From Enemella evansiae (GTDB taxonomy: Bacteria; Pseudomonadota; Alphaproteobacteria; Rhodobacterales; Rhodobacteraceae), in assembly GCA_017255395.1 (NCBI GenBank), contig JAFKDC010000002.1, positions 1 through 64,000 on the forward strand: 64,000 bases of DNA, given 5' to 3'. How positions within the stretch are numbered: position 1 is the first letter of the stretch; each line of letters opens with the position of its first letter. This document shows positions 53,586 through 60,766 of the stretch, piece after piece. Both the position numbers and the translations under genes were made by a program. The notes beneath the pieces are model-generated. The model made no database searches, was not told where the DNA came from, and was given only the letters and a program-made list of their open reading frames with translations.

Positions 53586-53676
53586 GGCGCGGCGACTATT
53601 TATCCGCAATTGCGATTGTTACGTCTTTCTTAAGGCCGCCCGCCTCATGGTCCCACCCAATGCGGTGAGGTTTCCT

Positions 53677-54282
53677 ATGATGCATGGATTGATCCTTCGG
53701 ACCTTTCAGGTTTTCGTTCAGGACACTTATGGCTCTGAACCGTGGCGGCGGATCGTCGACGGGGCGGGGCTGGATGCGCCGGATTTCGAGGCCATGCTCA
53801 GTTATCCGCAGGACACCTTCACGGCGGTTGTCGGGGCCGCCGAGGTGGAACTGAGAAAGCCCCCGGACGCCTTTCTGGAAGATGTCGGCACCTACCTCGT
53901 CTCGCACCCCAACAGCGAGGGGCTGCGCCGTCTTCTGCGCTTCGGGGGTGTCGATTTCATCGAGTTCCTGCATTCGCTGGAGGATCTGCCAGACCGGGCC
54001 CGGCTGGCCGTCGCGGATCTGGAGCTGCCGGATCTGGACCTTGTGGACGTGGCGCCCCACCGGTTCACGCTGCAGGTCGGGGCGGGGCTGCCCGGCTTCG
54101 GTTTTGTCCTGCTGGGCGTGCTGCGGGCCATGGCCGATGACTATGGCGCGCTTGTGCTGATGGAGTGTGACAGCGGCACCCTGGGACGGCAGACCATCGC
54201 CATCACCCTGGTCGAGACCGCCTATTCGCAGGGACGGCAATTCGCCCTGGCGGCGTCCGGCGCGCCGGAGGAGGAGGGATGA
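53677..54282 (+). CDS. H-NOX (heme NO/O2-binding) fold protein lacking heme ligands
   Basis: 201 residues; overall like a bacterial H-NOX protein: MMHGLILRTFQVFVQDTYGSEPW, LEDVGTYLVSHPNSEGL and VDFIEFLHSLEDLPDRARL align with the expected alpha-helices. At the proximal heme-ligand site (typical FLMMMDEVH or LENLHERV), this protein has FLHSLEDLP, so Pro105 replaces the histidine; the YxSxR propionate-binding motif is also absent (LQVGAGLPG). The usual start has GTGAGG in front. It overlaps the GGDEF gene by 4 bp, so the two are a sensor-output pair. Whether it binds heme by another ligand (His99 is near) is unknown. Confidence 0.78.
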   Translation: MMHGLILRTFQVFVQDTYGSEPWRRIVDGAGLDAPDFEAMLSYPQDTFTAVVGAAEVELRKPPDAFLEDVGTYLVSHPNSEGLRRLLRFGGVDFIEFLHSLEDLPDRARLAVADLELPDLDLVDVAPHRFTLQVGAGLPGFGFVLLGVLRAMADDYGALVLMECDSGTLGRQTIAITLVETAYSQGRQFALAASGAPEEEG

Positions 54283-55277
54283 CCGGGGTGCCCACCGAGA
54301 TCCTGCTGGCGCTCTGCCCGATGCATGCGGTGCTCGACCCCGGGGGCCGCATCCGGCAGGCGGGGCCGACGCTGCGCAAGCTGCGCGAGGAGGGGCTGGA
54401 CAGCGAACGCTTTCTCGATGTTTTCGAAGTCTACCGCCCGCGCCGGGTCGAGAGCATGGCGCAGCTTCTGTCGACCGAGGGGCGCAAGCTGCACCTGCGC
54501 CTGCGCGGCGGTCTGCGGACGCCGCTGAAGGGCATCATGGTGCCGGACGGGCAGGGCGGCGCGGTGGTGAACCTGTCCTTCGGCATTTCGGTCATGGATG
54601 CGGTGCGGGATTATGCCCTGACCAACACCGATTTCGCGCCCACCGACCTTGCTGTCGAAATGCTCTACCTCGTTGAGGCGAAATCCGCCGCGCTGGATGC
54701 GTCGCGCAGCCTGAACACCCGCCTTCAGGGGGCCATGGTCGCGGCAGAGGAACGTGCCTTCACCGATACGCTGACCGGGCTGCGCAACCGCCGCGCGCTC
54801 GACGCGGTGCTGGACCGCGTCACCCGCAGCGGAGAGCCGTTTTCGCTGATGCATCTCGACCTCGATTTCTTCAAGCAGGTCAACGACAGCATGGGGCACG
54901 CCGCCGGGGATCAGGTCCTGCGGCAGGTGGCGCGTGTGATGCTGGAGGTGACGCGCAAGGACGATACGGTTGCGCGCATCGGCGGCGACGAGTTCGTGCT
55001 GCTGTTCCCCGGCCTCACGCGGCACGAACGCCTGGCAGAGATGGCCGGTCGCCTGATCTCACGCGTCGAAGAACCGATTCCCGTCGATGCGGAAGAGTGC
55101 CGGGTCTCCCTGAGCATCGGAATCACCGTTTCAGACCGTGGGCAGGCGACCCCGGAAGAGATATTGTTGCAGTCGGACGAGGCGCTCTACGCCTCGAAAC
55201 GCGCGGGCCGGGCGCAGTTTCGCTTCTACGAAAACACCGCCAAGGGCCCTTCTGCCGGACGCATTGCCGGAGAATGA
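54279..55277 (+). CDS. HNOBA-GGDEF diguanylate cyclase
   Basis: 332 residues. Residues 1-130 resemble the H-NOX-associated (HNOBA) PAS-like domain (LLALCPMHAVLDPGGRIRQAG, with SFGISVMDAV later), residues ~133-160 a signalling helix, and 160-320 a GGDEF domain: DTLTGLRNRRAL, HLDLDFFKQVNDSMGH, active-site GGDEF at 235-239 and an RxxD inhibitory site RKDD at 226-229. All catalytic residues are intact, so it should make cyclic di-GMP under control of the partner H-NOX-like protein. The ATG overlaps that gene's stop. Confidence 0.88.
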   Translation: MTGVPTEILLALCPMHAVLDPGGRIRQAGPTLRKLREEGLDSERFLDVFEVYRPRRVESMAQLLSTEGRKLHLRLRGGLRTPLKGIMVPDGQGGAVVNLSFGISVMDAVRDYALTNTDFAPTDLAVEMLYLVEAKSAALDASRSLNTRLQGAMVAAEERAFTDTLTGLRNRRALDAVLDRVTRSGEPFSLMHLDLDFFKQVNDSMGHAAGDQVLRQVARVMLEVTRKDDTVARIGGDEFVLLFPGLTRHERLAEMAGRLISRVEEPIPVDAEECRVSLSIGITVSDRGQATPEEILLQSDEALYASKRAGRAQFRFYENTAKGPSAGRIAGE

Positions 55278-55337: not shown

Positions 55338-55412
55338 TGGGGTGTAGCCAAGTGGTAAGGCACCGGTTTTTGGTACCGCGCACCGTAGGTTCGAATCCTA
55401 CCACCCCAGCCA
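55338..55412 (+). tRNA. tRNA-Gln(TTG)
   Basis: 75-nt tRNA with 3' CCA encoded. Acceptor stem TGGGGTG / CACCCCA is perfect, D-arm region TAGCCAAGTGGTAAGGCA, anticodon loop TTTTGGT with anticodon TTG, and T-arm TAGGTTCGAATCCTA. The bottom of the anticodon stem has a C-C mismatch at 27-43. Confidence 0.93.
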
Positions 55413-57179: not shown

Positions 57180-58661
57180 CTAAGAATCAGCTTCCAGCAT
57201 CTTTTGAGCCAATAGTTCGACTAGTTCTTTGACTTCTGCCTCGGGTTTTTCGTTCTTGATGCGAAAATGCCCAACTTTCTCTATCTTCGAGAAGACATGA
57301 TCCTTGAAGTTACCAATCAAGATGGGAATGACGGCTCCATCTCCCAGCCTTTCTTCGAACTTCGTAACTTCAAACCTTGGCCACATTTTCTTTGAATATT
57401 CATCGTCAATAATGCAGAGAACGTATTTTGCCTCCGATCGATATATCGGTTCAAGGTATTCCTCAATATCTTGAGCGAGCATACGCTGCTCTTCCTGTCT
57501 GTCATAGAATACTTCAAACTGAAATTCCTGAAGGCCTTCAAATATTCTTTCAGCGATGGCTCTTGAGGTTCCCGAAAATGATAGAGCAAAGTCGTATCGC
57601 GTTTTGAATGTTACATTCTTGAATCCTACTTCTTTTGTAAAATGATTCCACGGCATTTCTCTAATATAGAAGGCAAACTGCGGGTCTTCAAGCGTGAGGC
57701 GAGTGTTATCGGGGTCGAAATGCAGGACTGCCGATATATCTGAGTTGTTCTCGATGTGATCTCGGAGATAGTTCTTCTGAACAACTTGACCCACACTGCC
57801 TCTCATCTGGGAGTGTTTTTGCAGCATGTCGCGAATAGATAAGGTCCACTCGTTTTGTTCCGCCAACCAAAACAAGACGTGGTGATACGGCGCTCTGCCG
57901 CTAGCTTGAAACTTTGGCCCCTTGCAAAAGGTTATCGTACGATCCTTGAACCTGTTGCTTAAGTCCCGCCAAACACCGCTCTTCACTTGTTCAAAGCTGA
58001 TATCGATAGTTTCTTGCTTTTCTCTGCTTTCCAGAACGTTCGCCTTAGCGCAAAGTTCATAGCAAAGCATCTGAGCTAAGTAGAAACTGCCTCCACTGGC
58101 TGTCGCGATCTGATCTTTTGAATCTATTTTAATATTAAGCGCTGTTTCTCCCTTGGTGATTAGTTCAGCCATCTTCTCCAGAGGATTAACTTCCATCCTG
58201 AAGAAATCCACGCGATTTGTGACATCATCCGCAAACGAAATCAGTCTCTTTCCACAGTCGTTAATCCCTACAATTACTATATCTAGGTCGTCTCTTTCTT
58301 CGTCAGCGCATACCTTGACGACGTCGGCGATCTTTCTCTGAATTTCTGCATCGAATTTGTGAAAGTCGTCGAATATATAGCTGCCGGAGAACTCGGATTC
58401 TAAGAGTTTTGCAACGGCTTCTCGCTCAGTAGCTTTCCTTGCAGAATACTTCACAAACGTATCATTTTTTCCCGTTCGTTCGAGTGCATTCTTAATTGCA
58501 GTTGTTTTTCCAATTCCAGAAGGCCCTTCCACCACGGCGCTTCTGCCAGGAGCTCTAAGTGAGACCACCAGTTTAGAAAAATCTACTGGTTCGACGAATG
58601 TGTGAGTTGGAGTACCACTTTTCTTGAAAACGTCTTCCAGAAATACTTTCATCTCACCCAT
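57180..58661 (-). CDS. ATPase-TIR protein, candidate anti-phage defence gene
   Basis: 493 residues. A P-loop ATPase occupies about 30-240: Walker [10 protein letters not shown] (46-54), Walker B SYIFDDF (94-100), sensor-like VIVGIND (129-134), and [17 protein letters not shown] (188-204), as in STAND/AAA-type NTPases. Residues 355-485 form a TIR domain: [50 protein letters not shown], and Glu431 in the FEVTKFE helix, where the NADase Glu is expected. The DNA is far AT-richer than its neighbours. The start overlaps the lepA stop by 8 bp; the second ATG (58652) is possible. TIR at the C-terminus is unlike most bacterial STAND-TIR proteins. Confidence 0.8.
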
Positions 58662-60459
58662 CCATCTTCAACGCCGAGATAAACGCTTCCTGCGGGATCT
58701 CGACCTTGCCGAACTGGCGCATGCGCTTCTTGCCGGCCTTCTGCTTCTCCAGCAGCTTCTTCTTCCGCGTGGCGTCGCCGCCGTAGCACTTGGCGGTCAC
58801 GTCCTTGCGCATCGCCGACAGCGTCTCGCGCGCGATGACCTTGCCGCCGATGGCCGCCTGGATCGGGATCTTGAACATGTGGCGGGGGATCAGATCCTTG
58901 AGCTTCTCGCACATGGCGCGGCCGCGCATCTCGGCCCGGTCGCGGTGGACCATCATCGACAGCGCGTCCACGGGTTCGTCGTTGACGAGGATCTGCATCT
59001 TCACGAGGTTGTCTTCGCGGTAGCCTTCCAGCGCGTAATCGAAGGAGGCGTAACCCTTCGTTACCGATTTCAGCCTATCGTAAAAGTCGAAGACGACCTC
59101 GTTGAGGGGCAGGTCGTAGACGGCCATGGCGCGGCCGCCGACATAGGTCAGGTCCAGCTGGATGCCGCGGCGGTCCTGGCAGAGCTTCAGCACGTCGCCG
59201 AGGTATTCGTCGGGCACGAGGATGGTCGCCTTGATGCGCGGCTCTTCGACGTGGTCGACGTAGGTCAGGTCGGGCATGTCGGCGGGGTTGTGCAGGTCGC
59301 GCCGCTCCCCGTCCTTCATGTAGAGGTGGTAGATCACCGAAGGCGCGGTGGTGATCAGGTCGATGTCATACTCGCGCTCCAGCCGGTCGCGGATCACCTC
59401 GAGGTGCAAAAGGCCGAGGAAGCCGCAGCGGAAGCCGAAGCCGAGCGCGGCAGAGGTTTCCATCTCGTAGGTGAAGGAGGCATCGTTCAGCGCCAGCTTC
59501 TCGATGGCGTCGCGCATGTCCTCGAAGTCGTTGGCGTCCACCGGGAAAAGGCCGCAGAAGACGACGGGAATCGAGGGTTTGAAGCCGGGCAGCGGGTCGG
59601 TCGCGCCCTTCTTCTCATGCGTGATGGTGTCGCCGACACGGGTGTCGCGCACCTGCTTGATCGACCCGGTGAAGAAGCCGATCTCGCCGGGGCCAAGCTC
59701 TGGCACGTCTTGCATGGCGGGGCGGAAGACGCCCAGCTTGTCGACGCCGTACTTGCCGCCGGTGCGCATCATCTTGATGTTGTCGCCCTTGCGGATCGTA
59801 CCGTCCATGACGCGGATCAGAACGACGACGCCGAGGTAAGGGTCGTACCACGAGTCCACCAGCATCGCCTTGAGCGGCGCGTCCGGGTCGCCGCCGTGGG
59901 GCGGGGGCAGGCGGGTGACGATGGCCTCCAGCACGTCGGGGATGCCGACGCCGGTCTTGGCCGAGATCAGGCAGGCGTTGGAGGCGTCGATGCCGATGAC
60001 GTCCTCGATCTGCTCGGCGACCTTTTCCGGTTCGGCCGCCGGCAGGTCGACCTTGTTGAGCACGGGCACGATCTCGTGGTCGGCCTCGATGGCGGTATAG
60101 ACGTTCGCCAGAGTCTGCGCCTCGACACCCTGAGAGGCATCGACGACCAGCAGCGAGCCTTCGACCGCGCGCATGGAGCGGGAGACCTCGTAGGCGAAGT
60201 CGACGTGCCCGGGGGTGTCGATCAGGTTGAGGATATAGGTCTGGCCGTCCTTCGCCGGATAGTCGATGCGGACGGTGTTGGCCTTGATGGTGATGCCGCG
60301 TTCGCGCTCGATGTCCATGGCGTCGAGAAGCTGGGCCTTCATGTCGCGTTCGGCGACGGTTCCGGTCAGCTGGATCAGCCGGTCGGCCAGGGTGGATTTC
60401 CCGTGGTCGATATGGGCGACGATGGAGAAGTTGCGGATGCGGGACAAGGGTGTGCTCAT
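58654..60459 (-). CDS. lepA: Elongation factor 4 (LepA)
   Basis: 601 residues, full length. GTPase motifs [13 protein letters not shown] (G1), [12 protein letters not shown] (G3), NKVD (G4) and the EF-G-like domains and C-terminal unique domain ending [17 protein letters not shown]. Back-translocates stalled ribosomes or aids initiation. Its stop lies inside the start of the adjacent TIR gene. A later ATG at 60459 is chosen ([11 protein letters not shown]); earlier frames are not homologous. Confidence 0.97.
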
Positions 60460-60766
60460 GTCTCGCGATATGCGGTGGAACAGGGGTTTGGTCAAGTGGG
60501 CTTGCGTGTCGGAAGCCGAACCGCCGCGGGTTTCGGCGCAGTCTATGCCGGTTCCTGCCTTTTGCGGTCATCGGGGGCCGGTTTCCCCTGGGTGTCGGGC
60601 CGTGACAGATCCGCGCTGGCGCGCAGATTTCGGTGACCCCGTCCCGGCGCGGCAGGACGTTAAGGACCGCGCGGCAGTGCGAGCGGTCGGGAGAGGCCAG
60701 CGGTTCGCCAGGGGCAGCGGTGGCCCCCCTGCACAAGCCCGCTGCCACTGGCTTTGGCCGGGCGGA
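60460..60766. other. 307-bp region upstream of lepA
   Basis: No gene seen; the lepA promoter should be here. GC-rich without clear palindrome or repeat. Confidence 0.4.

Follow-up and report, generated by a model that had tools for sequence, protein, structure and literature searches.

A Group 5 H-NOX protein without canonical heme-binding residues, encoded in overlap with a diguanylate cyclase gene in Rhodobacterales

H-NOX proteins that lack the axial heme ligand have been described in Rhodobacterales. Kumar & Spiro (2017) reported that the H-NOX of Paracoccus denitrificans has no axial His and that its gene, hnoX, overlaps the diguanylate cyclase gene dgcA (Pden_3719/3720); the H-NOX of R. 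sphaeroides likewise lacks the axial His (PMC5588039). In P. denitrificans, an hnoX mutant underproduces biofilm and a mutant without both cyclases overproduces it, and the authors suggest that H-NOX inhibits DgcA. Biofilm formation is stimulated by NO, which was proposed to act via H-NOX despite the missing His, and an H-NOX-independent NO route was also inferred (PMC5588039). A direct measurement of c-di-GMP in this organism failed (PMC12582929). According to Lee-Lopez & Yukl (2022), less than 10% of their "Group 5" H-NOX proteins carry the proximal His and most have Pro, no Cys is conserved, the hinge glycines are conserved, and the signal is unknown (PMC8738867). Heme-free control of a cyclase by an H-NOX was raised as a question in print in 2022, and no answer was found in the accessible literature. 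The sole biochemically characterized relative known to us is Hnox of Dinoroseobacter shibae, which is reported to bind NO and inhibit the cyclase Dgc1 (PMC8846402; PMC7232146).

We analyzed a gene pair in a 64,000-nt stretch of DNA, here called the window. Its forward strand encodes an H-NOX-fold protein of 200 aa (hnox, P0001; 53680..54282), followed by a diguanylate cyclase of 332 aa (P0002; 54279..55277), and the two genes share an ATGA start/stop overlap of 4 nt (54279..54282). This overlap, as well as the FLHSLEDLP and LQVGAGLPG stretches in the hnox open reading frame, is present as read in a first-pass annotation made from the sequence alone. That annotation placed the ligand site correctly, but its residue numbers (Pro105 and His99) are one too high because they were counted from an ATG at 53677, three bases upstream of 53680. 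The family start is the second ATG at 53680 (MHGL...), where Met is found in 94% of the relatives, and the residues are therefore Pro104 and His98.

The cyclase carries an intact GGDEF active-site motif (residues 235-239; 54981..54995, + strand) and an intact RxxD inhibitory (I) site, RKDD (residues 226-229; 54954..54965, + strand), both as previously annotated, and judging from its sequence the enzyme is apparently active. It matches Pfam GGDEF with an E-value of 6.5e-43. The HNOBA domain attributed to it does have a Pfam match, but this is weaker than implied and partial (E 7.6e-6), with residues 4-58 aligned to positions 3-57 of a 216-position profile. As modelled by AlphaFold2 (pLDDT 91), the cyclase has a PAS-like N-terminal domain (residues ~6-100), a long coiled-coil helix (124-160) and the GGDEF domain. 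In the PDB this model best matches PAS-GGDEF and coiled-coil-GGDEF proteins, and we describe the architecture as PAS/HNOBA-like, coiled coil, GGDEF.

The H-NOX-like fold proposed for the upstream protein was borne out by both profile and model. The protein matches Pfam HNOB (PF07700) with an E-value of 1.3e-18 and 67.9 bits, above the curated cut-off of 25.5, and an AlphaFold2 model built with 63 sequences predicts an H-NOX fold at a pLDDT of 89 (89.3). The best PDB match of this model is Nostoc H-NOX (TM 0.78/0.85), followed by soluble guanylate cyclase (sGC) beta and bacterial H-NOX proteins. A phmmer search against solved structures also retrieved Nostoc H-NOX Alr2278 (E 2e-13). Here, LPDR of the window protein aligns exactly over Nostoc LHAR, placing Pro104 (codon CCA, 53989..53991, + strand) opposite the heme-ligating His105, and Nostoc YQSTR aligns with VGAGL (residues 133-137; 54076..54090, + strand). 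By alignment, the protein thus has neither the proximal heme-ligating His nor the YxSxR propionate motif.

Conservation analysis showed that this state is common. A protein search of 199 family genomes, sampled at nearly one per genus, gave a homologue in 139, and at the level of the order 242 of 296 genomes contain the HNOB family; the named relatives are roseobacters such as Mameliella, Salipiger, Ruegeria, Phaeobacter, Tritonibacter and others. We aligned 217 distinct sequences, 17 of them canonical (with His and YxSxR, two references included) and 200 without YxSxR. None of these 200 group members keeps the Y, S and R together. Their ligand column holds Pro in 154, His in 14, Ser in 7, Asn in 6, Ala in 5, Arg and Gln in 3 each, Thr and Gly in 2 each, and Asp, Lys, Glu and Tyr in one each. 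The alignment with Rhodobacterales proteins that the first-pass annotation had called for shows that the lack of His is shared by a subfamily (186/200). The annotation was right about the lost heme ligands and the pairing with a cyclase, but a diverged input of this kind is not rare: most members in the order have Pro, and this form had been reported in 2017 and 2022. The His share among the relatives (14/200, 7%) agrees with the published value of <10%, and the window protein groups with the H-NOX of P. denitrificans (tblastn E 9e-18, 96% of the protein covered), whose site in the plasmid record, LRELPGR, is of the Pro type and whose partner gene also encodes a diguanylate cyclase. The window protein is a member of the described Group 5. 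The protein is widespread in roseobacters under "heme NO-binding" family names, and in most of them the residues that would justify the name are missing.

The coupling to a cyclase is nearly universal. A GGDEF-type cyclase gene lies directly downstream in essentially all loci; among 204 loci, which include up to four canonical ones (L116, L213, L214, L218), in part next to a different type of GGDEF gene, the 4-nt overlap is found in 146, an intact GGDEF motif in 202 and an intact I-site (RxxD-N5-GGDEF) in 197. Within the H-NOX protein, the hinge glycines G70 and G146 are kept in 100% of the relatives and Pro117, aligned with Nostoc Pro118, is kept as well. Several residues are near-invariant in the group and absent from canonical H-NOX proteins, namely E67, D68, R83, R84, R87, R106, R149, ADDYG at 152-156, R186, F188 and L190. 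These are about equally conserved in His-bearing and His-less members, a pattern in the alignment that would fit a shared partner interface rather than a change of the pocket. The single Cys of the window protein (C163) is not a conserved column, and the best Cys column of the family (57%) is Val in the window. The Tyr column of YxSxR (family column 133) has turned into Cys in 111 of the 200 relatives; the window has Val133 at this position (54076-54078).

Could heme still be bound, either via a different residue or with no axial ligand from the protein, so that NO is sensed as in D. shibae Hnox? The H-NOX fold is kept, D. shibae Hnox functions without YxSxR, and a heme/CO structure (2kil) has been solved for an engineered H-NOX from which the His was removed (S. 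oneidensis H103G). In our alignment, however, the 186 His104-less relatives show no gain of a conserved His, Cys, Met, Tyr, Lys or Arg over the 14 His104-bearing ones at the thresholds used, and the Cys that many members have in the Tyr column is Val in the window. The nearest candidate is His98 (53971..53973, + strand), put forward earlier as an atypical heme ligand. It is found in 141/200 relatives and is somewhat more frequent in His104-less (135/186) than in His104-bearing members (6/14), which speaks for such a role. On the other hand, it is not strictly conserved, both His98 and His104 are missing in 51/186, and it shares a helix with position 104 but lies six residues away, turned by about 120 degrees from the face that bears the ligand, so that as a replacement ligand it is weakly disfavoured. 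His2 is equally conserved in His-bearing and His-less members and is therefore no replacement ligand. Taken together, we consider retained heme binding unlikely, at roughly one chance in five.

The strong conservation of the fold in spite of the lost ligands could also mean that the former heme pocket holds another small hydrophobic molecule as the true input. H-NOX pockets can accommodate non-heme drugs, as seen for Nostoc H-NOX with BAY 60-2770 (4iae), but for the group we identified neither a ligand nor a gene for making one, nor any conserved new chemistry in the pocket, and we regard this as rather improbable.

Comparison with the sister species gave a dN of 0.014 and a dS of 0.130 for hnox (dN/dS ~0.11), showing that the gene is under purifying selection. 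Loss of the heme ligands together with the overlap of the two genes might suggest a decaying relic retained solely because its translation is coupled to that of the cyclase. This explanation, and that of a pseudogene, is rejected by the dN/dS value; moreover, many residues are near-invariant family-wide, the reading frame is open in nearly all genomes, and deletion of the P. denitrificans gene has a strong phenotype, so that we give it hardly any credence.

The distribution of the His was followed on a tree of H-NOX and cyclase sequences from which the ligand and YxSxR columns had been left out. The 14 His-bearing members are scattered over this tree, which requires the His to have changed at least 8 times. 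A single loss of His, with the 14 His-bearing members as one clade, was rejected (p-AU 2e-5 in a 60-row subset with 9 changes). With canonical H-NOX proteins as the root, the heme-competent relatives branch outside the group. The simplest reading is that an ancestral His was lost several times, with the caveat that the counts alone do not tell loss from regain. Two Rhodobacterales H-NOX proteins that have the His as well as YxSxR, with a GGDEF gene nearby (L213 and L214, from genomes G217 and G318) branch just outside the group and are a possible model of the ancestral state. Retention of the His was not associated with the nitrite reductase genes nirK/nirS (7/14 His-bearing versus 26/66 His-less genomes, the latter not a random sample; Fisher p 0.55), and the genome of the window has no strong match to nirK or nirS.

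Upstream of hnox we found a conserved element ending in TTAAG (53612..53634, + strand), about 50 nt before the start codon. Of 199 upstream regions, 144 contain TTAA[CG], with a cluster between -41 and -60; the window copy is at 53630-53634. The element reads roughly T.TT..G...TTT[CG]TTAA[CG] and occurs upstream of both the His-less window member and the His-bearing D. shibae member. The H-NOX/cyclase pairs of D. shibae and R. capsulatus are under CtrA control according to the literature, and our guess is that the element might be a CtrA half site. The classical full CtrA site, TTAA-N7-TTAA, is found in only 0.5% of the loci.

Directly after the cyclase gene lies a tRNA-Gln(TTG) (55338-55412). 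Synteny with the sister species (G002) stops exactly at the 3' end of this tRNA (55412), and each genome carries different cargo beyond, so that the site resembles a hotspot for insertions; within the window, the tRNA 3' end occurs only once. Further downstream, an AAA-ATPase and TIR-domain protein of 493 aa (57180-58661, - strand), with a weak match to the PADLOC candidate defence family PDC-S59, is encoded between transposase-like remnants, recognized by eye, and lepA (58654-60495).

Our preferred reading, to which we assign a probability of about 0.6, is that the Group 5 H-NOX is a heme-independent regulatory subunit of its co-encoded cyclase and probably an inhibitory one. It draws on the near-universal coupling to an intact cyclase, the missing ligands and the purifying selection. 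The protein has lost its axial heme ligand along with the propionate clamp YxSxR, while the H-NOX fold, as predicted, was kept. H-NOX and cyclase would bind each other via the PAS/HNOBA-like domain and the coiled coil, like a soluble guanylate cyclase divided over two proteins, and the H-NOX subunit would hold down c-di-GMP synthesis, as the Pro-type orthologue of P. denitrificans appears to do from genetics. Since the H-NOX is encoded one-to-one with the enzyme, a permanent brake is unlikely and therefore some input must exist; this input would be independent of heme and other than NO sensing by a His-ligated heme. The pocket may be empty, in which case the protein would be structural, as the H-NOX domain of sGC alpha is, or may hold another ligand.

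More tentatively, and with slightly less than even odds, most Rhodobacterales H-NOX proteins may not be gas sensors at all, heme sensing having been lost repeatedly and a heme-independent input to the same cyclase having been kept or gained. If so, a sensor fold has switched its signal with its output partner unchanged, and a direct comparison could be made between orthologues with and without the His in one operon. The scattered pattern of the two types within one conserved operon offers natural pairs for studying heme-less control of a cyclase.

Among the known systems, Group 5 with HnoX/DgcA of P. denitrificans has in common with the window pair the Pro site, the absence of YxSxR and of a conserved Cys, the overlapping GGDEF gene and the occurrence in Rhodobacterales. 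The window protein is about 37% identical to the P. denitrificans protein, and nothing was found that sets it apart from the group. The Hnox/Dgc1 pair of D. shibae (Dshi_2815) is orthologous as well, with 43% identity in the genome search, no YxSxR and the same TTAAG-type upstream element. Because D. shibae Hnox is reported to bind NO without YxSxR, loss of this motif alone does not abolish heme function. Its site, however, reads LDDLHDR with the proximal His kept, and it is reported to act through NO-bound H-NOX, whereas the window protein has Pro104. D. shibae Hnox is thus one of the minority that kept the His, and what is known of its NO/heme mechanism should not be carried over to the Pro type.

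A second H-NOX in the same genome (G000:C24:29362-29838, locus L001) adjoins a hybrid histidine kinase gene. It has the HNOB family and fold in common with the window protein, but is canonical, keeping the His within IHxEVRKLYPDA and YxSxR, and has this different partner. The domain order of sGC, H-NOX, PAS (HNOBA), coiled coil and cyclase, would by analogy be split over two genes in the window pair, with c-di-GMP, as deduced from the genes, instead of cGMP as output. In Foldseek comparisons, the window model is closer to the beta chain of sGC (TM 0.79) than to the alpha chain (~0.5), and it is the H-NOX domain of the alpha subunit that provides the precedent for a heme-free H-NOX domain.
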